DNA of 64,000 nucleotides from assembly GCA_029266615.1 (NCBI GenBank), contig JAQSWN010000021.1, positions 57,093-121,092 on the forward strand. The letters run 5' to 3'. Both the position numbers and the translations under genes were made by a program. Positions within the stretch are counted from its first letter, which is position 1. Each line of letters starts with the position of its first letter. The notes under the pieces were generated by a model. It did not search any database. It saw only the letters and a program-made list of their open reading frames with translations, and was not told the origin of the DNA. This document shows positions 3,674 through 36,418 of this stretch, piece by piece. Source of the stretch: Polyangiaceae bacterium (GTDB lineage: Bacteria > Myxococcota_A > Polyangia > Polyangiales > Polyangiaceae).

Positions 3674-6600
3674 TCAGCCCTTCAGCGCGGAAAGGCGTGC
3701 CTTGGCGTCTTCGAGCCCGTCAGTCTGCACCGCACGCTCGTACATCTGGACTGCCTTGGCCTTCTCGTCCAGCTGCTCGTGGATTTGACCAAGTCGGAAG
3801 AAGACCATGCTCTTTTTGATGGGTCCGTTCACTTCGTCCAGCTTCTGCAAGAGGAGCGCGCGGTACATCTGCTGGGCCTTCTTGTGATCGCCGACTTGCA
3901 TGGCGACGCTGCCGAGCAGGGTGAGCACGTTGACGTTGCCAGGCTCGATGCGGAACGCCTTGTCCAGCTCCTCTAGCGCGCGCTGCACCTCGCTATCGGC
4001 CAGGTATGCGGCGGCGAGGCGCCGGTGGATCTCGCCCAGCTCTTTGGTGCGCTTCGTTCCGAAACTGTCCACGATGCGCTGCAGCACTTCGGCGGCGGCC
4101 TTGCCACGACCGGAAGCGCTGTACTGGTCGCACAGCTCGAGAAGGATTTCGCGGTCGTCCGGCTTCAGCTTGCTGGCGCGCTCCAAGAGCTCGGCCGCCG
4201 CGACGTGGTCGCCACGCTCCTTGCTCTGAATTTGGGCGGCGCGCTGCAAGAGCTTGATGGCTTCCTCCGGCTTGCTCGCGAGCTCCGCGTCGCGAGAGAG
4301 CAAGCTTCCCAGCTTGTCCCAGGCTCCCTCGGTTTGGTAGAGAACGCGCAGGCGGTCGCGCAGCTCGGCGCTTGCCTCGTCATGGGTCAGCCCCCGCTCG
4401 AAGGCGCGGGCCGCCTGCTCCGCGTTGCCGAGCTTCTGCTCGGTCTCGCCCAGCTCGAGCGCCAGCGCGACGGCGGGCGCGCCGCTCGCCATGTCCAGCA
4501 AACGGCTGGTGATCTCGGACGCCGCGGCGAGGTCGTTCTGAGCCTTGTACAAACGTGCCAGGGCCTCGAGCGCGCCCTGGTGGTTCGGATCTCGCTCCAG
4601 GACTCCGCGGTAGGTGTCGATGGCGCGCGAGCGATCGCCGAGCCGGCCGTCGTAAACCTCGCCCAGCCGCACCTGGAAACGGAGCTCGCTCGCCGTATCA
4701 CCGCGGGCCTGAGCCGCGCTGATCTGGGTGGAGAGCAGGTCCGCCAGCTCTTCGTCGCGCTGCGTCTTTTCGTACAGCTCGCTCAGGGCCACGACCGCTT
4801 CGCTCTGGCCCGGCTCTTCGTCGAGCACGGCCCGGAGCAGCTCGATGGCCGCGTCCATAGACTCGAATTTGTCGCGGTTCAGCTGCGCCAGCTCGAGCCG
4901 TAGCGCGGTGCGCGCGCTCGGCGACTCGGCCATGTCCACCAAGCGCTCGAGCAAGCGCCCGAGATCTTGGTGCCGCCCGGCCATTGGGTAGAGGGCGCGA
5001 AGGGCCGCGGCCGACTCTTGATCGCTCGGCTCGTCCTCGAACAGCTGCTCGAACAGCTCGGTGGCCTTGGCGGTGTCGGACAGCTTGTCGCGCGCGACCT
5101 CCGCCGCGCGCCGGCGAAGCGCTCGAACGCTGCCCGCATCGGCGGTGAGCTCGGCCTGACGCACGGTGAGCTTGAACGTCTCCGTGTAATCACCAGCGGC
5201 CTCGCGGAGACGACACAGCTCCGACAGCGCCCACAGGTTCGTGTCGTCCTGAGCCAACAGCTCGCGCAGCACCGACTCGGCCGCGGCGCTGTCGCCACTC
5301 TTCTCCGCGAGTGACTTGGCCTGACGATACAGCTCCTCGCGACGCGATTCGTCCACCTGGAGCTTAGCGCGGCGACGCAACGTGCCGAATAGGTCCAGCT
5401 CGCGACCGGGCGCGCTCTGGAGCTGCTCGATCGCCTGCAGCACCTCGTCATTCGTGTCCTCGAACGAAAGGGCGCGTTTGAGCGCCGCTTCCGCGGCCGC
5501 GTTGTCGCCCACCTTTTCTCGGTACCAGCGCGAGAGTCGCATCGCGAGCTCCACGCCGGACTCCGGGCTCAGGTCACTCTTCAGCGCGATCGCGCTGTCG
5601 AGGGCCTGGCACGCCTTGTCCCACTCGCCGGTGATCGGCGCGAGCCGCTCCAACTCCTCGAGCAGGGCCGTGTCCTCTGGCGCCTCCGCGAGCCCCAGCT
5701 CAATCACGCGCTGCGCGGCGCGCGGATCTTTGGCTTCTTCTTCGAGGACCCGGGCGAGGCTGCGACGCATGTCGATGCGCCCCTCCACGCTGTCCGCGAA
5801 GCCGACGCGCTTTTCGTACAGCTTGGCGAGCCGGTCCGTCATGCCGCGCGCGCGATAGACGGACTCGAGGATTTCCGACACTTCCTCGAACAGCTCCTCG
5901 TTGTCGACGAGCTTCTCCAGCTCGGCGATCGCGGGATCGTGAGCGGGCACTCGCTCGAGGGCCATGCGCAGTGAGCCCAAGCCGCGCGCGGGCTCCTGGA
6001 AGCGCTCGATCTGAATTTGGGCGAGGCGGAAGTACAAGTCCGCTTGACGCTCATCCGAGCTCTCCACCGTCACCCGTCGCTCCAAGACGTCGGCCACCGC
6101 TTCGTGCTCGTTCAAGCGCGAATGCAGTCGATCCAGCGCGTCCAGCAGGTCCGGCTGGTCGCCGGCTTGTTCTCCGGCGCGCTTGTACGCGTTCACCGCG
6201 CGGCGATCGTCCTTCAGCTCGACCTCCGCGATTCGACCGAGACGAACGTACAGCTCTCGCGCGACGTCCGGCTCGAAGGTCGAGCCCGCGCGATCCGACA
6301 GCGCGTCGGCGTAGCGACCGAAGCCGCCCGTCGCGCGCGAGAGCCGCTCGAGCTCGACGTGCAGCTCGCCATCGTCCGGCACCTCGCTGATGGCGCGCAG
6401 CAACGCGGACTCGGCCTCGGCTTGCTTGCCCAGGTTCGCTTCCTGCACGCGCGCGATGGTGCGCAGGGTCTGCACCCGCTCCGTAGGCTCCGTCTCGACC
6501 GTGAGCCGCAGCTCCAGCACGTCCACCAGCTCCACGTGACGGCCGCTTTGCTCCAGCACCGGTACCAAGATCTCCGCCACCGTCCGGCGCAGGTCTTCGT

Positions 6601-9600
6601 GGCCGCCCCCAATCTCTCGAACCGCGGCGATGACCTCGCCGTCGGTCGGAGCCTCCTCGAGCGCGAGCCGGTAGGAGTCGAGCGCGTCCTCGAAGCTTTC
6701 CAGCTTGGAAGCCAAAATGTTGCCGATTTCCTTGCGAATTTGCGCGCGTTCGGCCGGCCCTTCCGCGGCGCCCGCCTGCAGCCGAAGGCTGTCCAGCAGC
6801 TCCGGCCACATCGCCTCCGAGCGGTACAAGCGATTGAGCGACGCGAGCACGCCACCGTCGCCGGGACGCACCTGCAGCGCCTGCTCCAGCACTTCGATCG
6901 CCTTGCGCTTGTCGGAAAGCTGCTTGTCGTAGCAAGCAGCGGCGCTGACCAGGAGCGTGTACTTGAGGTCGTCGTCGTCCTGAGTGAGCTCCACGCGCCG
7001 CTGGTACAGCTCGACGAGCCGCGCCGCGTCGCCCTTCGTCTCGTACAGCTCGATCAAGCAATCTACCGTGAACGCGCTCTCGGGATCGAGGTCGAGCGCC
7101 TTCTCGTAGCCGGCGATCGCGCCGGGCGCGTCGTCCAGCATGTCCCGCTTGGCTTCGGCCACGCGGCGCCACACGCTCGCTCGCTCTTCGTCGTTCGGGA
7201 GCAGCTCCGCTTTCGCGGTCAGCACGCGCACCAGCACCTGCCAGTCGCTGAGCAGGGTCGCGAGCGACTCCATCTTGTTGAGCGGCTCGATGTCGCTCTC
7301 GTCCGCCGCGAAGAGCCGCTCGTAGGCCGCCAGCGCGCGGCGGGGGTCGTCCCGGCGCGAGTTGTGCACGTTGGCCAACGTCGCCAAAATATCGCGTCTG
7401 TCCCGCAAATCGGGGTGCTCTTCGAGCACCGCCTCGTAGGCGTCCGTGAGTGCGTCCCAAGCCGCGGTCTTTTCGACGAGGCGCTCGTACTCGGCGCGCG
7501 TGTCCGCGTCGTCCGGGTCCAGCTTGACCGCCGCCTCCAAAGCCCGGCGGGCACGGTTCAGATCGTCCCCTCGTTTTTCCCACAGCTCCGCGGTTTCGCG
7601 CAGCACGCGTACCTTGTCGGCCGCGTCCTCGGCGAGCTGGTAGCGGTCCTCGTTCAGTTGAATCTGCCGACGCCAGTCGTCCGCCGCTTCGTAGAGCGGG
7701 CGCAGGATGTCGACGATGCGTTCCGTATGCTCGGGCCGCTTACGCAGCTGCTCGAGCGCGGTGATCGCCTCCTGGTGACGCGGCAGGGACGAAGTGATCT
7801 CTTGCAGCTGATCGACGGCTCGCTCGATCTGGTTTTGCTCTTGATGCAAGCGCGCGAGCGCCAGGCGGTACTGCGCCCCCTGCTCTGCCGACGGCGCGCT
7901 CTCCGCCCGGCGCAGGTACAGCTCGGCCAAGTCGTCCCACCGCGAGCGGCTACGGTACAGCTCCGTGAGCGCGTCCAGCGACACCGCGTCGTCGTCCTGC
8001 ACCTCCAGCGCTTGGCGATAGGTCTCGATAGCGTCGTCGGGCTTGGCGAGAGCGCCCTTTTGTAGCCCCGCCATCGTGTGCAGCAGCTGCAGGCGCTCCC
8101 CCGGCTCGAAGCGATGCTCGAGCCCCTGGCGATAAAGCGCGACGCGCTCTTCGTCGCGACCGGCCTTCTCCAAAAGCTGGTCGACGCTCCCGAACAGCGA
8201 CTTGCTCTCGGGCTCGAAGGCGAGCGCGCGACGGAAGAACGAGAGTGCCAAGTCGCCCTCGTTCAGATCTCGGAACAGCTCACCGGTGCGCCGCGCAAGC
8301 TTTACGCTCGACTCGTCGTCGGTCTCGATCTTCTTGAGCTCGTCTGCGTAGATCTCGGCCAGGCGCCGCTCCGCCGAAGCCACCTTCGCGAGTCGCTCCA
8401 GCTCGGCGATGGTGCCGGTGTCGCTCGGATCTTCGGACAGGAGCCGGGCGACGGTGTCGAGCGCCGCGCGGTAGTCTTCCTTCTGCTCCTCGTACAGCTT
8501 GGCGAGCCGTGTGAGCAGCTCGCGGCGCTCGTCCGGGTCCCCGCTCGCCTCCAAACGGGCACGGATGGTGTTCATCACCTTGCCGAAATCCGCGCGGAGC
8601 AGGTACACCGGCTCCAGCAAGGCGGCCGCGCGCGCGCGCTCCTGCGGATCCGGAGCGTCGTTGACCAAGCGCTCGAGCTCGGCGATGGCACCTTCGTGCT
8701 GGCGCTCGGCGGAGAGCGCGCTCTCGAGCTCGTCGAAGGCGCGCCCGACATTGTTCTGGTGACGCGAGGCCACGCGAGCGATCGCGACGTGCAGGGCGGC
8801 CGGCTCTCCCAGCTTCGCGTCCAGCTGGCGCTCGTAAAGAGCGACGAGCTCCCCCCACATGGACTCGCTGGTGTAGAGCGACTCGAGCGCGGTCAGCGCG
8901 TCCCTTTCGAGCGAGATGTCGAGGATGGTCTCGTACACCTCGATCGCGCGGCGCCGCTCGGAGAGCGCCTCCGAGAGGAGCTTGGCGCGTCGGAACAACA
9001 GCGACTTTCGCTCTTCGTCGTTCTCGGCGACCTCGGTTCGCCGCTCGAGGATCTCGAGCAGATTGCGCGCGTCCCCGCTCTCCTCGTAAAGAGATTCGAG
9101 CGCCGATAGAGCCCGTTTGTCCTCCGCGCGGAGCTCGAGCGCCTTCTTGTAATACGTGCGCGCAAGCTCACGATCGGCGAGCTGGTGACGCGCCAAATCC
9201 GCGATCTTCAGGGTGACGATCAGCTGCACCTCGCCGTCGAAGATCTCGGGCACGACCTCGGCCAGCAGCTTGACGTACTCGGCCTGGCGCGACGTGGCCG
9301 TCGCCAGGCGCTCCAGGTGGTTGAACCACGGAACCAGATCCGCATGGCCGACCGCAGAGCGCACGGCGCGCTCCGCGAGCCCGAAGGCGCGCTGCGGGTC
9401 GTTGAGCGGTCCCTCCGCGACCTTCATCGCTGCCTCGAGGCCGTTCAGCTTCTCGATCGGATCGTCGGTCGTATCCACCTCGATGAGCTGCGTCGTCAAG
9501 AGCCGCTCGTGATTACCCTCCGCCTCGAAGATAGGCTTGAGGATGAGCGCGGCCTCGCGACGGGTCGCGTTCTCCGGCGACTCCAGCAGCTTGCCGAGGG

Positions 9601-12600
9601 CCGCGCGGCTCGCGTCGTGCGTCGTGCGAATCGAGAGCGCGCGACGATACACCTCGATCGCGCCCGGCTCGTCCGCGAGGTGCTCGCCCTTGATGGCGCC
9701 GAGCTTGGCGAGAATGTCCAGCCGCTCGTCATCCGTGTCGCACAAGCCGAGGTGCCGCTCGTAGGTGTCCGACAAGTCTTCCCAGCGGCGGGCGGAAGCG
9801 AACAGAGCCTCGAGCGCGGAGAGCGAGTCGCGGCTCGGGCCAAATTCGGCGACGAGCGCTTGGTAAGAGTCGATGGCTTCAGGGACGGAGTCGAGCTTCT
9901 TCCACAGCGTCTCGGCTTCCCGCGTCATCAGCGAGCGACGCAGCTCCGCGTCAGTGCTGGCCTCGCGGCGTCGCTGCAGCACGTTCACCAAGTCCCGGTA
10001 GCGTCCAGCGCTATCGTAGAGTCGGTCGAGCGCGGCGAGCGCCTCGGCGTCGTCGGGATTCTCTTCCACGCGCGCGCGCCACGCGGCGATGGCTCCCGCT
10101 TCGTCGTTCAGCACGCTCTGGCTCAACGTGCCGAGGCGGCCGAAAAGCTCGCGCCGAACGGCGCCGTCCTGCTCGTGCTGGACCTGGAGCTTGAGCATTT
10201 CCGACAGCTTCAGGCTCTCTCCGGAGGATATGTAGAGACGCTCGAGAGACTTGGCCGCGGGCAAGACGAGCGCGGCGTCGCTCTCGTCCAGCTTCAGGAT
10301 GCGGCGGTAGGTTGCCTCCGCGCGGCTCGGATCCGCCAGCAGCTCTTCGTAGGTGCGCGCGACCGCGGTGAGGATTTCTCCCTTGGCCGCCGACGTATCT
10401 GCCTTCTCCGCCGCTTTGGTGAGGACGTCCGCCACGCGCTCGTGGGCCGACACGCGACGCCCGATTTCCAGCAGGCGCGTGCGGGCCTCCGCGTCCAGTG
10501 GATCCATGGGCACCAGCTCCGCGAGCGCGTCGAGCGCGCCTTGGTCGTCATGCAGCCGGTCGTCCCGGAGCATGGATATTCGGCGCAACAGCTCGCGGCG
10601 CTCCTCCACCACCTCCGCCGACGTGAGCGACTCGAGGCGGATCGCGAGGACGCGTACCAAGTCCCGCACTTCGTCGCGGGTCTCGTAGACGGTCTCCAGC
10701 GCTCGGGCCGCGCGCGGCCTCAGCTCGCCGATGGCGAGCATGCGCTCGGCCAGCTCGCGCGCTTCGTAGTCACCGACGCGCTCACGCAGCACGTCTTCCA
10801 CGTGACCCATCGCCTTTTCCGGGTAGAGCAGGTCCAGCTGCAGCTTGGCGAGTCGGAGCTTCAGCTCGAACACGTCGTCGCCGGTCGCGGTCTCCAAGCG
10901 CCGCTCGAGCAACGCGGAGAGCTCCGGGTTCTTGCCCTGCTTCAGGTACAAGCGGTCGAGCGCGCGAATGGCGGCGTCGTGCCCGGGATCGATTTCCAGG
11001 ATGCGCTCGTAGTAGGTGGTCGCTTTCGCGGCGTCCTCGATGATCTCCTCGCAGATGAGCGCTACCTCCACGAGCATGTCCACGCGTCGGCCGAGGTCGT
11101 CCGTCGCGCGGGAGGCGCGGTCGTACAGCGCCTCGAGCTCACCCCAGCGCTCCGCGGCGGTGAGGATGTCTTTGAGCCGCTGAAACGCGGCTTCATTGCT
11201 GGGCTGAATCGAGAGCACGCGCTCTAGGTACGGAGTCGCGCCGATCGGATCGCCTAGTTTGTCCTCGTGCAGCCGCGCCGCGCGCTCGGAGAGCTCACTC
11301 TCTAGCGATGCGTCGAGCTTACCGCGCAGCACCTCGCGCAGGGCTTCGGCCAAGTCCGTGGGGCGACCGGCGGAGCCGGCCAGGCTGTCCGCGCGGTCCC
11401 AGAGCGCGAGCTCGTTCGGAAACTCGCGCACGGCCTGGAGAACGACGTCGAGCGCACTGCCGTGCGCGCCGAGCTTTTGCTCGTGAACGTCCGCCAAGCG
11501 ACCGTAAAGCGCCAAGCGCTCGGACGGCTCCTGGACCTGCTCGAGAAGGACGGTCAAAGCCGACGCCTCGCGCCGGGCCTCACCGCCGCTCGCGTAACGC
11601 TGAGCGAGGACATCCGCGGCGCGCGCGCGCACCTCGGGTACGTTCACCAGCCGCTCCAACACCGACATGGCCCGCGGGCTTTGCGCGTCCGAGCTCAAAG
11701 CCGAAATCGCGCTCGCGAGCGCGTCCGCCGGGCGGTTGAGCTTCTCCAAATACAGCTCCGCCAGCTCGACTTCGCGCTCCGCGCGTACCTCTCCCGAAAC
11801 CGCGTCGCGGTGCTGGGCGATGATTTGCGCGGCGCTGGCGGCGTCCCCCGCGGAGAGCAGCAAGCGCGGCAAGCTCGAGAGGGCGCGGTCGTCCGCTCCC
11901 GCGAGCTCCAGCATGCGGCGGTAGAGCCTGATCGCCGCTTCCGGCGACTCGAACACGGCTTCTTCGAGCGTCGCCCACTCGCCCAGCAGCCGCAGTCGCT
12001 CTTCGTCCGAAGGCGCGCTCGTGACGCGCAGCTCCAAAAGCCAACGCAAGTCGTCGCGCCGGTCGTGCCGGCGGAGGATACCTTCCAGCTCGCCCGCCGC
12101 GTCGGCATCCGCCGGGTCGCGTTCGAGCATCTGCTTGTACACCTTCACCGCGTCGTCCGTGCGAGAGAGCTCGTCTGCGTACACTCGCGCGAGCTTCAGC
12201 TCCAGCGTGCGCCGCGCGCTCTCCGGCGCGGACTTGACGGGCTCCGCGGCCGCTGCGGGCTCAGCCGAGTCGGGCTTCTTCTTGCCCTTTTTGCCTCGTT
12301 TCGGCGCCGCCGCGGCGGGAGCCGAATCCTTGGCCGCGACGGGGGGCGGCGCGTCCGTCACCTCTGCGCTCACGGTCGCGAGGCGCGCTTCCAGCACGTC
12401 CACGAACGAATCCCACGTGCCGGCCGCGCGCGACGTTTCCTCCAGCATCTCGAGCGAGAGCGCGTTGTCAGGCGAGAGCTCATAGGCCTTGCGTGCGTAA
12501 CCCGCCGCGGCCTTGCGATCGCCCAGGCGCTTGCCCGAGACGTCCACCAGGCGTCCGAGTAGCTCGAGCTTCTCGGACTCGGTCTCGGACTTCTCGAGCA

Positions 12601-15031
12601 AGAGCTCGTAGAGCGGCACCAGCCGCGCCCACTTCTCGTCCTTTTCGTACAGCGGCAACAGCGCGCGCGCGGCGCGGGTGTCGGCCGGGTCCACGCTCAA
12701 AATGCGATCGTACGAACGGAAGGCGCGCTCTGGCTGGCTCAGCTTCTCTTCGTAAACACGCGCCGCGCGGTAAGACAGCGCAATCTTGCTCTCCTTGTCC
12801 TTGGCGCGATCGGCGGCGGTGGACAAAACCTCGGACAAGCCTTCCCAGTCGTTCTGGCTGCCGTAGAGGGATTCGAGCGCGTCGAAGTCGGCCGCACCCA
12901 AGTAAGACTCTCGCAAGACGCGGAGCGCGCGCGAGTGGCCCGGAGAAAGCGCGAGCACGCGGCGCCAAGTGTCGACGGCTTTCTCCGCGTTTTGCAGCTG
13001 GTCCGCGTAGACAGTGCCGAGCTTCTGCAACGCGGCGAGCTTTCCCGCCGGTTCCCCCTCGAGCTCCACGCGACGCTCGAGCGCGGAGGCGAGCGTGGGG
13101 TAGTCACGACTGCGCTCGGCGAGCTTCTCGAGCGCGTCCAGGACCTCGCCCCGCGTGGGGTCGATTTCGAGCGTTTGCTGGTAGAGCGCGATCGCGTCCA
13201 TCGGGCGGTTCAAGCGCTCCGCGGCGAGCGCGGCCATTTCGCGCAAGAGCGGGAGCTGCTTGACGCCTTCGGCTTGCTTCAAGTCCGCCGCATACAGCTC
13301 GTAAAGCGGCGCCCAGGCGCGACGCTTGCGGTACAGCTCCTCGAGCCGCTCGCGCGCTTCGCGGTCGTCCGGAGCGACCTTGAGCAAGGCTGCGTACGCC
13401 TCGGTCGCGTTCTGCGCGTTGGAGAATTGGTCGAGCCAGCGACGCGCAGCGGCGCGGTAGAGCTCCTTCTTCTCCTCGACGTCGGGTGTGATCTCCGCAA
13501 GCTTCATCTGGTTGGTGATGAGGTCGCGGTGACGGCCGAGCTTGTCGTAGAGCGAGACGAGCTCGCGCATCTCCACCACGTCTTGCTCGTCCAACTTGTC
13601 GTCGAGCTGGACGATTTGTCCGAGCACGGAGAGGAGCGCGGTGTCGCTCTTGATGTACTGGCGGTAGACGGTCGCGACCTCGCGCAGCACCGTGATGCGC
13701 TCTTGGTACTTTTCGTTCGGCAGCCGCTCCAGCTCTTGCCGGAGCAGCTCCACGAGCGCGTTGTAACCCTGCGTCTGCTTGTACAGGCGCTTCAACGCGT
13801 CGCGCGCCTCCACGTTGTCGGGGTCTTGGCGCAGCACGCTCTTGTACTGCTCGACCGCTTTTTGCGCGTTCTCCTGGCCTTCCGCCATCTTGCCCAGCTG
13901 GGCGCTGAGCTGCGTGCGGTCCTTGCTACCTTCGGGCAGCGCGCGCGCGGCGCTCTGAAGGATTTCCATCAGGCGCGTGTCGTCGTTCAAGCCCGCGCAG
14001 TACTCGCGGAAGAAGCCGAGCATACCGGGGTTCGCCGGCTCGACCTTGCGAATGCGCTCGAACCACGGCTCCGCGTCGGCCGGCTTCTCCAGCTTCTTCC
14101 AGTGCAGCATCGCGATCTGCAGCATGTCGCCGATGCGCTCGGCGTCGCTCGAGCCCTTGGCCTTCACCTCTCGCTCGTAGAGCACCACCAGGTCCGCCCA
14201 GCGCTCCGAGCTCGAATACAGATCCGAGAGGAATTCCTTGGCTTCGGCGTGGTCCGGGCCGTCTCGCAGCACGCTGTTGTAGGCGCGCGCGGCGCGCTCT
14301 GTGTCCCCCAGCTCTTGCGCGTACACGCGCGCGAGGCGCACGCCCGCCGCGATTCGCGCCTGCGCCGTCTCCCCTCGATCGGCGAGCCGCTCGAGCACGC
14401 CCGCGACGTCCTCGTAACGGTCTTTTTGCCGGTACAGGTGCTCCAGCAGGCGGCTCGCGGGCTCGTTCGTCGGATCCAAGCGCACGGCTTGCTCCAGTCG
14501 ATCCACGGCCGCTTCGAAGGCGGCCTCGTCACTACCGAAACGGACGTCCATCTCCGCGGCGCGCATCAGCATCGCGCTCTTGTAGGCTTCGTCGCTCGCG
14601 CCTTCGGCCTCGCTCAAATAGCTCGCGCGGAGGTCGGCGTGACGTTGCCGACGGCTTTCCTGATCCGAAAGCGCCTTGGAAGCTTCTTCGTCGTTCGGCT
14701 GGATCTCGAGCAGCCGCAAGTACGCCACGGCAGAGCCGTCTTCGTCGAACAGCTGCTCCGAAAGGAGCTTCGCTTGCTCACGCACCAACACGCCCTCGCG
14801 CGGCGTGCCTTGCGCCTGCGCGACCGCCAGCTCCAGCAGCTTGCCGGCCGCAAGCCACTCACCCCGCTCGGCATGCTTCTCGCGCGCGGCGTCGAGGAGC
14901 CGTGCCAGCTCCTCCCTCGAAAGATCGCCGCCTTCTTCCTTCACGGACGCTTGCAGCGCTTCCCAAGCTTGCTTCGAACCCGGTTCTGCCTGCAGTTTTC
15001 CAAGCGCGGTGCGGATCGTCTGAGAATCCAT
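3674..15031 (-). CDS. Giant tetratricopeptide-repeat protein, 3785 residues
   Basis: A single uninterrupted frame of more than 11 kb made almost wholly of degenerate TPR units. They recur as A..YE.IL..DP....A...L..LY followed by a partner helix with a WxxLxxLYER-type ending. The number of repeats is of the order of a hundred. There is no signal peptide or membrane segment, so it should be a cytoplasmic alpha-solenoid scaffold. One low-complexity Ala/Pro/Lys linker, about residues 895-935 (12.23-12.37 kb), with the basic run KRGKKGKKK, splits the solenoid into a shorter N-terminal and a much longer C-terminal part. The ATG at 15031 is preceded by GAGGAAAAG. It heads the operon with the MlaE/MlaF-like genes, suggesting a scaffold or assembly role for envelope machinery (inference). 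Extreme length and lack of frameshifts argue that it is under selection. Confidence 0.9.
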   Translation of the reverse strand: MDSQTIRTALGKLQAEPGSKQAWEALQASVKEEGGDLSREELARLLDAAREKHAERGEWLAAGKLLELAVAQAQGTPREGVLVREQAKLLSEQLFDEDGSAVAYLRLLEIQPNDEEASKALSDQESRRQRHADLRASYLSEAEGASDEAYKSAMLMRAAEMDVRFGSDEAAFEAAVDRLEQAVRLDPTNEPASRLLEHLYRQKDRYEDVAGVLERLADRGETAQARIAAGVRLARVYAQELGDTERAARAYNSVLRDGPDHAEAKEFLSDLYSSSERWADLVVLYEREVKAKGSSDAERIGDMLQIAMLHWKKLEKPADAEPWFERIRKVEPANPGMLGFFREYCAGLNDDTRLMEILQSAARALPEGSKDRTQLSAQLGKMAEGQENAQKAVEQYKSVLRQDPDNVEARDALKRLYKQTQGYNALVELLRQELERLPNEKYQERITVLREVATVYRQYIKSDTALLSVLGQIVQLDDKLDEQDVVEMRELVSLYDKLGRHRDLITNQMKLAEITPDVEEKKELYRAAARRWLDQFSNAQNATEAYAALLKVAPDDREARERLEELYRKRRAWAPLYELYAADLKQAEGVKQLPLLREMAALAAERLNRPMDAIALYQQTLEIDPTRGEVLDALEKLAERSRDYPTLASALERRVELEGEPAGKLAALQKLGTVYADQLQNAEKAVDTWRRVLALSPGHSRALRVLRESYLGAADFDALESLYGSQNDWEGLSEVLSTAADRAKDKESKIALSYRAARVYEEKLSQPERAFRSYDRILSVDPADTRAARALLPLYEKDEKWARLVPLYELLLEKSETESEKLELLGRLVDVSGKRLGDRKAAAGYARKAYELSPDNALSLEMLEETSRAAGTWDSFVDVLEARLATVSAEVTDAPPPVAAKDSAPAAAAPKRGKKGKKKPDSAEPAAAAEPVKSAPESARRTLELKLARVYADELSRTDDAVKVYKQMLERDPADADAAGELEGILRRHDRRDDLRWLLELRVTSAPSDEERLRLLGEWATLEEAVFESPEAAIRLYRRMLELAGADDRALSSLPRLLLSAGDAASAAQIIAQHRDAVSGEVRAEREVELAELYLEKLNRPADALASAISALSSDAQSPRAMSVLERLVNVPEVRARAADVLAQRYASGGEARREASALTVLLEQVQEPSERLALYGRLADVHEQKLGAHGSALDVVLQAVREFPNELALWDRADSLAGSAGRPTDLAEALREVLRGKLDASLESELSERAARLHEDKLGDPIGATPYLERVLSIQPSNEAAFQRLKDILTAAERWGELEALYDRASRATDDLGRRVDMLVEVALICEEIIEDAAKATTYYERILEIDPGHDAAIRALDRLYLKQGKNPELSALLERRLETATGDDVFELKLRLAKLQLDLLYPEKAMGHVEDVLRERVGDYEARELAERMLAIGELRPRAARALETVYETRDEVRDLVRVLAIRLESLTSAEVVEERRELLRRISMLRDDRLHDDQGALDALAELVPMDPLDAEARTRLLEIGRRVSAHERVADVLTKAAEKADTSAAKGEILTAVARTYEELLADPSRAEATYRRILKLDESDAALVLPAAKSLERLYISSGESLKLSEMLKLQVQHEQDGAVRRELFGRLGTLSQSVLNDEAGAIAAWRARVEENPDDAEALAALDRLYDSAGRYRDLVNVLQRRREASTDAELRRSLMTREAETLWKKLDSVPEAIDSYQALVAEFGPSRDSLSALEALFASARRWEDLSDTYERHLGLCDTDDERLDILAKLGAIKGEHLADEPGAIEVYRRALSIRTTHDASRAALGKLLESPENATRREAALILKPIFEAEGNHERLLTTQLIEVDTTDDPIEKLNGLEAAMKVAEGPLNDPQRAFGLAERAVRSAVGHADLVPWFNHLERLATATSRQAEYVKLLAEVVPEIFDGEVQLIVTLKIADLARHQLADRELARTYYKKALELRAEDKRALSALESLYEESGDARNLLEILERRTEVAENDEERKSLLFRRAKLLSEALSERRRAIEVYETILDISLERDALTALESLYTSESMWGELVALYERQLDAKLGEPAALHVAIARVASRHQNNVGRAFDELESALSAERQHEGAIAELERLVNDAPDPQERARAAALLEPVYLLRADFGKVMNTIRARLEASGDPDERRELLTRLAKLYEEQKEDYRAALDTVARLLSEDPSDTGTIAELERLAKVASAERRLAEIYADELKKIETDDESSVKLARRTGELFRDLNEGDLALSFFRRALAFEPESKSLFGSVDQLLEKAGRDEERVALYRQGLEHRFEPGERLQLLHTMAGLQKGALAKPDDAIETYRQALEVQDDDAVSLDALTELYRSRSRWDDLAELYLRRAESAPSAEQGAQYRLALARLHQEQNQIERAVDQLQEITSSLPRHQEAITALEQLRKRPEHTERIVDILRPLYEAADDWRRQIQLNEDRYQLAEDAADKVRVLRETAELWEKRGDDLNRARRALEAAVKLDPDDADTRAEYERLVEKTAAWDALTDAYEAVLEEHPDLRDRRDILATLANVHNSRRDDPRRALAAYERLFAADESDIEPLNKMESLATLLSDWQVLVRVLTAKAELLPNDEERASVWRRVAEAKRDMLDDAPGAIAGYEKALDLDPESAFTVDCLIELYETKGDAARLVELYQRRVELTQDDDDLKYTLLVSAAACYDKQLSDKRKAIEVLEQALQVRPGDGGVLASLNRLYRSEAMWPELLDSLRLQAGAAEGPAERAQIRKEIGNILASKLESFEDALDSYRLALEEAPTDGEVIAAVREIGGGHEDLRRTVAEILVPVLEQSGRHVELVDVLELRLTVETEPTERVQTLRTIARVQEANLGKQAEAESALLRAISEVPDDGELHVELERLSRATGGFGRYADALSDRAGSTFEPDVARELYVRLGRIAEVELKDDRRAVNAYKRAGEQAGDQPDLLDALDRLHSRLNEHEAVADVLERRVTVESSDERQADLYFRLAQIQIERFQEPARGLGSLRMALERVPAHDPAIAELEKLVDNEELFEEVSEILESVYRARGMTDRLAKLYEKRVGFADSVEGRIDMRRSLARVLEEEAKDPRAAQRVIELGLAEAPEDTALLEELERLAPITGEWDKACQALDSAIALKSDLSPESGVELAMRLSRWYREKVGDNAAAEAALKRALSFEDTNDEVLQAIEQLQSAPGRELDLFGTLRRRAKLQVDESRREELYRQAKSLAEKSGDSAAAESVLRELLAQDDTNLWALSELCRLREAAGDYTETFKLTVRQAELTADAGSVRALRRRAAEVARDKLSDTAKATELFEQLFEDEPSDQESAAALRALYPMAGRHQDLGRLLERLVDMAESPSARTALRLELAQLNRDKFESMDAAIELLRAVLDEEPGQSEAVVALSELYEKTQRDEELADLLSTQISAAQARGDTASELRFQVRLGEVYDGRLGDRSRAIDTYRGVLERDPNHQGALEALARLYKAQNDLAAASEITSRLLDMASGAPAVALALELGETEQKLGNAEQAARAFERGLTHDEASAELRDRLRVLYQTEGAWDKLGSLLSRDAELASKPEEAIKLLQRAAQIQSKERGDHVAAAELLERASKLKPDDREILLELCDQYSASGRGKAAAEVLQRIVDSFGTKRTKELGEIHRRLAAAYLADSEVQRALEELDKAFRIEPGNVNVLTLLGSVAMQVGDHKKAQQMYRALLLQKLDEVNGPIKKSMVFFRLGQIHEQLDEKAKAVQMYERAVQTDGLEDAKARLSALKG

Positions 15032-35635: not shown

Positions 35636-36418
35636 TCAGCCGCTTTTCGCGGACTTACGAGCGGGCGCTTTGCGCTTGGGCGACGGCGGAGGCTCTGAGG
35701 ACGCCGGTGCCGGCTCCGCAGCGCGCGTGGCCATGGCGGTCGGCGCCGACTTCGATTCGGGCGCGACCTTGGAGTCCGGCGCCGCGGTGTCCGCGCTCGC
35801 GCCGTACACGGCGTGGAGGTCTCCGAGGAGCTCCAACAGGACGAGGTACTGGTCGTCCGGGTGGAGCGAGCCGAGCGCCTCCAGGATACCCAGCTTGGCT
35901 TTGCCGCGCGCAATCGCATTCGGCAACTGAGGAGGTACGTGCGTGCCAGGCGGCGTGGGAGGTGGCGACCACTGACCGCGACTGCTGCTCGGCGGGGCAC
36001 CGAACGGACGACTGGCGGGCGCGCTACCAGAGCTCCCAAAACGAGACGAGCCCGGATTCACTTCGAACACCCGACGGCGTGGGAAGTTGCGCTCCGACTC
36101 CTTCGGACGCTTTTGTTCCGGCACCCAACCCTCGGGCTTGGCCTCACGCGGCATCTTGTCGTTGAAGATGGCGGCGCGTTGTTCCTTCGGCAGCTTCTGG
36201 CGCGCGAGGTAAAAAAATACGCCGCCGGGTGAGCGACGACCTTTGCCGTCTCCACGCTCCATTCCGCCGGCTTTCTCGATGCGGTCTGTTTCCGCGAGGA
36301 GCGACAGACAGGTCTCCTCTCCGAGTGCCGTGACGACGGCTTGGATCTGCGCGAGGGGGCCCTCGTCAGCCTCCCCTAACGCTTTGGAGATGGTTTGGAT
36401 AGTTGCCTCGCTGGCCAT
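35636..36418 (-). CDS. PHAX-type RNA-binding domain protein
   Basis: A 260-residue protein starting MASEATIQTISKALGE at 36418; an upstream in-frame stretch is not protein-like. Residues about 5-90 match the PHAX RNA-binding fold. Helices LAQIQAVVTALGEETCLSLL and AETDRIEKAGGM lead to the signature GGM......GRRSPGGVFFYL, which matches the GG...GxRRRTPGGVFLxLL motif of the eukaryotic snRNA export adaptor PHAX. KLPKEQRAAIF follows. The rest is Pro/Ser/Gly-rich and disordered and ends in a basic Lys/Arg tail (KRKAPARKSAKSG). No signal peptide is present, so it acts in the cytoplasm, presumably binding single-stranded RNA. It is not obviously in an operon. The domain assignment is from memory of the motif. 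Confidence 0.8.
   Translation of the reverse strand: MASEATIQTISKALGEADEGPLAQIQAVVTALGEETCLSLLAETDRIEKAGGMERGDGKGRRSPGGVFFYLARQKLPKEQRAAIFNDKMPREAKPEGWVPEQKRPKESERNFPRRRVFEVNPGSSRFGSSGSAPASRPFGAPPSSSRGQWSPPPTPPGTHVPPQLPNAIARGKAKLGILEALGSLHPDDQYLVLLELLGDLHAVYGASADTAAPDSKVAPESKSAPTAMATRAAEPAPASSEPPPSPKRKAPARKSAKSG

Follow-up and report, generated by a model that had tools for sequence, protein, structure and literature searches.

In animals, the export of small nuclear RNAs is mediated by the adaptor PHAX; an earlier, sequence-only reading of a stretch of bacterial DNA proposed that one of the proteins encoded there carries a PHAX-type RNA-binding domain. Whether this assignment holds, and what such a domain might do in a bacterium, are the questions raised by this locus. 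We addressed them for the whole analysed stretch, 64,000 nucleotides from a member of the Polyangiaceae (the window), and for relatives of the gene in other genomes.

The open frame is a conserved gene

The coding sequence occupies positions 35636–36418 of the window and is read on the minus strand, from an ATG at 36418 to the stop codon at 35636–35638 (260 codons). The sequence-only reading had placed an open frame here without naming a strand; a minus-strand frame encoding 260 amino acids is confirmed, and plus-strand frame 1 across the same interval is not open, being interrupted by three stops. A family search found one copy of the gene in the window genome.

Comparison with the nearest relative gave a dN/dS of 0.042 for the whole gene and 0.014 for the PHAX domain, at a dS of 0.69. 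Across six pairs of relatives the ratio ranged from 0.042 to 0.449 for the whole gene, from 0.014 to 0.288 for the PHAX domain, which was the lowest of four segments in five of the six pairs, and from 0.021 to 0.418 for a predicted C-terminal hairpin that is kept in the genus; these ratios, derived from NG86 counts, are rough because dS exceeds 1 in several segments. Constraint on the linker and tail is weak: over these short stretches, single pairs gave values as high as 1.15 and 1.49. The window gene is a real gene, with purifying selection acting on the domain and the hairpin. Elsewhere in the window, the minus strand holds a very long open frame (3674–15031; 3785 codons) with a high third-position GC content.

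Homology to the eukaryotic PHAX RNA-binding domain

The Pfam profile PHAX_RNA-bd (PF10258) matches residues 9–88 of the window protein (positions 36155–36394, minus strand) with an E-value of 8.4e-18, scoring 64.6 bits where the curated cut-off is 25. This bears out the domain assignment by the profile search that had been suggested as its check. The same profile scores the human PHAX domain at 118 bits, and 0 of 14 control genomes were positive in the PHAX family search. No NCBIfam model or PADLOC defence family matched the window protein at E ≤ 0.01. The signature GGMERGDGKGRRSPGGVFFYL spans residues 51–71 (36206–36268, minus strand), where the motif first noticed, GGM......GRRSPGGVFFYL, is indeed found. 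Relative to the PHAX signature (GG ... RRRTPGGVF), the GG and PGGVFF elements are kept and GRRS replaces the usual RRRT, the first Arg, near-invariant elsewhere, having become Gly and the Thr having become Ser. The domain carries no net charge (12 K/R, 12 D/E).

Sequence matches run in both directions. A phmmer search of solved structures with the window protein retrieved human PHAX (2xc7) at E 1.2e-5, and a profile made from 75 bacterial domains, with no eukaryotic member, retrieved 2xc7 at E 1.8e-18, the full-length human chain at 1.5e-17, and 2w4s, an RNA-binding domain from Cryptosporidium, at 3.2e-16. One designed repeat protein, 4rv1, stood above 2xc7 in the phmmer search (E 7e-6); it was rejected as spurious, its score being a sum over repeats none of which passes alone (4.8–9.5 bits for each repeat printed). 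A second designed repeat protein, 4hxt, was dropped from the bacterial-profile search on the same grounds, no single stretch passing by itself; both rank below the PHAX chains in that search.

An AlphaFold2 model, computed from an input alignment of 38 sequences, folds the domain into five helices, with pLDDT values of 92–98 in the ten-residue blocks that end at or before residue 80 and of 84 in the block 81–90; the pTM of the whole-chain model is 0.42. The model contains no strand and only two single-residue bridges. When it was compared with the PDB by Foldseek, the first three ranks were taken by 2xc7 and two chains of 2w4s, so that the proposed comparison of a predicted structure with human PHAX returned the two solved PHAX domains as its best matches. 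The match to 2xc7, entitled 'PHAX-RBD in complex with ssRNA', has an E-value of 3.9e-4, with a superposition that is poor across the whole length (rmsd 6.3 over 106 columns, TM 0.59 by target). The match to 2w4s (E 5.8e-4) superposes closely, with an rmsd of 1.6 over 86 columns and a TM of 0.79 by target for 2w4s_A, and all matches beyond the two 2w4s chains have E-values of 4.6 or worse.

The first third of the window protein is a genuine homologue of the eukaryotic PHAX RNA-binding domain, which it resembles in signature, in helical fold, and in sequence matches both ways. It differs from the eukaryotic domain in the GRRS for RRRT exchange, in a wider spacing of the first conserved Glu from the Gly (16 residues; the two eukaryotic chains have 13), and in the company that the domain keeps within the protein.

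A predicted hairpin between basic, disordered segments

Residues 89–160, which follow the domain, are modelled with low confidence and are basic (pI 11.5). This linker contains a short basic motif, FPRRRVFEV (residues 112–120; 36059–36085, minus strand), whose RRRV-x-(E/D)V core is kept in 8/8 aligned sequences of the genus. Further on, the model predicts a helical hairpin at residues 165–208 (35795–35926, minus strand), formed by helices 165–183 and 187–208, with mean pLDDT values of 65, 85, 93, 91, and 72 in successive blocks from residue 161 to 210. The hairpin gave no Pfam match above cut-off, and no Foldseek match of the model to the PDB was attributable to it. The chain ends in a basic tail (residues 246–260; 35639–35683, minus strand) with a pI of 10.3, the last 25 residues holding 6 K/R and 1 D/E. 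The first description of the rest of the protein as disordered thus agrees with the low-confidence linker but missed the predicted hairpin, where pLDDT is 85, 93, and 91 over residues 171–200; the Lys/Arg tail is as that description had it.

Like full-length PHAX, the window protein is a largely disordered chain with a single folded RNA-binding domain. In human PHAX, parts that bind CRM1 and the cap-binding complex (residues 55–60 and 112–162) precede the domain, and an ARS2-binding part is described as well (PMC12350170). Because only 8 residues precede the domain in the window protein, counterparts of these parts cannot sit N-terminally in it, and, judged against these parts of PHAX, the window protein is not an export adaptor.

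Occurrence in bacteria

The domain was found in 8/8 genomes of the window genus that were searched, in genes with a GC content of 0.66–0.69. In the family, 15 of 108 genomes were positive; one match (L012, genome G333) is spurious, its frame lying antisense to a VgrG-like protein as judged by reading the frames, and the family count is therefore 14/108. The phylum sample gave 6/377 positive genomes, or 5 without G333. Among 400 sampled Chloroflexota genomes, 21 encode the domain, one of them in four copies; two to four copies of PHAX-domain genes are found in some genomes of this phylum. PHAX-type domains are not a one-off of the window genome; they form a family in at least two bacterial groups.

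A scan of the genome_contigs collection with one short pattern returned 72 stretches and 49 confirmed loci, of which 40 bear Chloroflexota titles, 8 are of the Polyangiaceae kind (L014–L021, with L018 titled Proteobacteria), and 1 comes from a Nitrosomonas MAG; as a single pattern was used, members in other phyla may have been missed. The Nitrosomonas locus (L054, Nitrosomonas sp. Bin_15_1, on a 6.4-kb contig) is the sole one besides L018 to be titled as another phylum, and its contig may be mis-binned, since its domain sits among Chloroflexota sequences in the tree described below.

In 50,697 phage records, tblastn with the window protein found nothing at E ≤ 0.01, and plasmids gave one match, in Herpetosiphon; viral contigs gave no match with one query alignment and one with another. 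The latter is a short PHAX-domain protein (L113:3938–4468) on a 141.6-kb IMG/VR contig filed as viral, where a helix-turn-helix protein lies, by eye, about 3 kb from the PHAX gene. The contig may represent a mobile element whose host is a member of the Chloroflexota.

Nucleic-acid-binding partners in other bacterial PHAX proteins

We scanned 85 bacterial PHAX frames, namely the window protein and 84 relatives, against Pfam. The set excludes frames with identical domains, the spurious L012, and the frame-split L061 and L062, and it retains some near copies; each frame runs from one stop to the next, and contig ends truncate some of them. PHAX_RNA-bd was matched in 85/85 frames. At E ≤ 1e-4 the only other families were RRM_1 (7 frames), cold-shock (5), RRM_7 (1), and IF2_N (1), with no enzyme family among them. 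The recognised partners are nucleic-acid-binding domains save for the one match to IF2_N, a translation-factor domain. In one relative (L048) four RRMs are present, and these match the NCBIfam Rbp RNA-binding regulator above its cut-off; another (L047) has two PHAX domains.

Many Chloroflexota copies, among them many of L022–L060, carry an additional C-terminal domain of about 100 residues with the pattern TLIGRP..LPKGLP..KQW..LIIEG. At E ≤ 0.5, no Pfam family recognised more than 3/39 members of this domain (the best being ThiS-like, at 0.036). A model of the protein from Thermosporothrix hazakensis (L025; mean pLDDT 92.4) shows this domain as five strands and short helices. Foldseek with the whole L025 model retrieved 2xc7 and 2w4s, and also lysyl-tRNA synthetases, editosome proteins, Stn1–Ten1, mitochondrial SSB, and PriB; these non-PHAX hits (E 1.9e-4 to 3.9e-3) are whole-model matches with poor global superposition. 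The LysRS, Stn1–Ten1, mitochondrial SSB, and PriB targets hold OB folds; as Foldseek gave no aligned ranges, we take the C-terminal domain to be the probable OB-like part of the L025 model. A profile of this OB-fold-like domain matches 48/85 frames, its 39 rows having been picked by eye from the same set. The domain occurs twice per protein in L052, L094, L095, and L097.

The window protein has no RRM, cold-shock, or OB partner by Pfam or by the OB-like profile. It shares the PHAX domain with the Chloroflexota proteins (for example L025, Oscillochloris L030, and Herpetosiphon Haur_5073, the last annotated 'hypothetical protein') but differs from the many that add an OB-fold-like domain and the some that add an RRM or cold-shock domain. 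Other architectures were also seen. Four Myxococcota relatives (L011, L013, L110, and L111) have shorter PHAX-type domains, followed, by eye, by a winged-helix-like C-terminal part in all except L110. Several Chloroflexota proteins (L080–L083, L085, and L087–L089) are short, with almost nothing after the PHAX domain and a highly charged, probably helical N-terminus before it.

Gene neighbourhood

No neighbour gene is common to the whole genus, in which two sub-groups have different neighbours, and we rejected gene neighbours as a clue to function. In one sub-group (the window, L014, and L015) a PEGA/TPR protein and an unassigned protein surround the gene. In the other (L016, L018, L019, and L020) a biotin-protein ligase lies upstream, identified by Pfam in L016 and L020 and by BLAST cluster in L018 and L019; L020 also has a quinolinate phosphoribosyltransferase and a YjeF-type protein nearby, and L019 a sigma-70-type factor. 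Pfam was run on the neighbours of the window, L016, and L020 copies. Around the window gene it recognised the PEGA/TPR protein, an acyltransferase, a 2-hydroxyacid dehydrogenase, and, below cut-off, a kinase-like protein, with no match for 6/10 scanned neighbours. Several apparent opposite-strand neighbour clusters were discarded as shadow frames of real genes. In Chloroflexota, where several loci have short flanks, no neighbour cluster extends beyond 5/39 loci.

Likely function

We favour, with moderate confidence, the view that the window gene encodes a stand-alone bacterial protein that binds single-stranded RNA and acts after transcription; it probably belongs to a kind of bacterial RNA-binding protein that has attracted little attention. 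We infer RNA binding from domain homology and from the fusion partners of relatives. The RRM, cold-shock, and OB-fold-like partners found elsewhere fit such a role, and since none of them is present in the window protein, the argument there runs through the homology of its domain. By analogy with PHAX, the loop-plus-helix signature (GG...RRSPGGVFF) would grip single-stranded RNA, the hairpin might join two copies or a partner, and the basic linker and tail could contribute loose affinity. The whole protein might then serve as a post-transcriptional regulator or RNA chaperone, much like the bacterial cold-shock (Csp) and RRM (Rbp) proteins, whose domains are fused to the PHAX domain in some Chloroflexota. 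The likeness to these proteins lies in the proposed mode of work: RRM and cold-shock folds are unrelated to the PHAX fold, and neither is present in the window protein. SSB and other OB-fold proteins likewise differ from it, as it has no OB-fold domain (no match to the OB-like profile and no strand in the model).

Cold-shock and OB domains also bind single-stranded DNA, and the same partners could indicate a single-stranded-DNA or nucleoid protein, in which the domain and basic tails would hold single-stranded or chromosomal DNA instead of RNA. The Foldseek matches of the L025 model to SSB, PriB, and Stn1, the strong basicity of linker and tail, and the winged-helix-like part seen by eye in two Myxococcota genomes (L011 and L013 in G349, L111 in G846) are consistent with this. 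RNA is nonetheless favoured by the RRM fusions (7/85) and the solved PHAX-RBD/ssRNA complex, and no replication or repair gene was found among the Pfam-tested neighbours; we regard a DNA-binding role as unlikely. More improbable still is reuse of the domain as a protein-binding module that has lost nucleic-acid binding, with the hairpin and RRR motif recruiting a partner. Loss of the near-invariant first Arg in the window protein, L006, and L007, the zero net charge of the domain, and conservation of the hairpin would suit such a module, but the rest of the RRSPGGVFF signature is retained, and in most pairs no other segment has as low a dN/dS as the domain.

The gene could, lastly, be a fragment of a eukaryotic PHAX gene, brought in by assembly contamination or by a recent transfer and without a settled role. 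It is in eukaryotes that the domain is best known, human PHAX outscores the window protein on the Pfam profile (118 vs 64.6 bits), and contamination of the assembly is estimated at 7%. This explanation is contradicted by the presence of the gene in every searched genome of the genus at GC 0.66–0.69, by the single supported group that the nine family sequences form in the tree (96/89), by the wide and varied occurrence of the domain in Chloroflexota, and by the position of the gene on a 129-kb contig amid bacterial-type genes, and we give it almost no credence. To our knowledge, little is known of post-transcriptional regulators in the two phyla; the bacterial PHAX family, with its fusions to three other kinds of nucleic-acid-binding domain, offers a testable group of RNA-binding proteins there.

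Evolution of the domain

The bacterial family also raises a testable question about the origin of the RNA-grip of the snRNA export machinery. When 75 bacterial domains were put in a tree with two eukaryotic chains (79 columns), the nine window-family sequences grouped together, and the human and Cryptosporidium chains fell into a fork (80/86, not starred) with five bacterial sequences, four of them titled Chloroflexota and the fifth L054. The free tree does not join the two eukaryotic chains to each other; a tree constrained to hold them as one clade was not rejected (p-AU 0.195). The stretch between the first conserved Glu and Gly measures 16 residues in 66 of the 77 rows and 13 in both eukaryotic chains and 6/75 bacterial sequences (L031, L046, L054, L056, L059, and L084). 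Four of these six lie inside the fork and L031 and L084 outside it, and L060 is in the fork without the short spacing. The eukaryotic domain may branch from within the Chloroflexota sequences, a lead and not a result because the tree has 79 columns and two eukaryotic chains. A tentative scenario, which we consider possible and rather doubtful, makes the PHAX domain an ancient RNA-binding module of bacteria that took on diverse forms in Chloroflexota, with OB, cold-shock, and RRM partners, and was passed to the Polyangiaceae; the eukaryotic snRNA-export adaptor would then have drawn its RNA-binding part from a lineage of Chloroflexota type in which the spacing is the short one of 13 residues.

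In the literature collection searched, no paper was found for PHAX with Chloroflexi, and among the matches listed for PHAX with bacterial terms no title concerned a bacterial PHAX; papers under the Pfam name and 'PHAX domain' dealt, by title, with eukaryotes only. Databases may already list bacterial members, since Pfam's own model finds these proteins. A comparative study regards PHAX as an innovation of animals (PMC3032688); as far as the domain is concerned, the Cryptosporidium chain already speaks against such an emergence.
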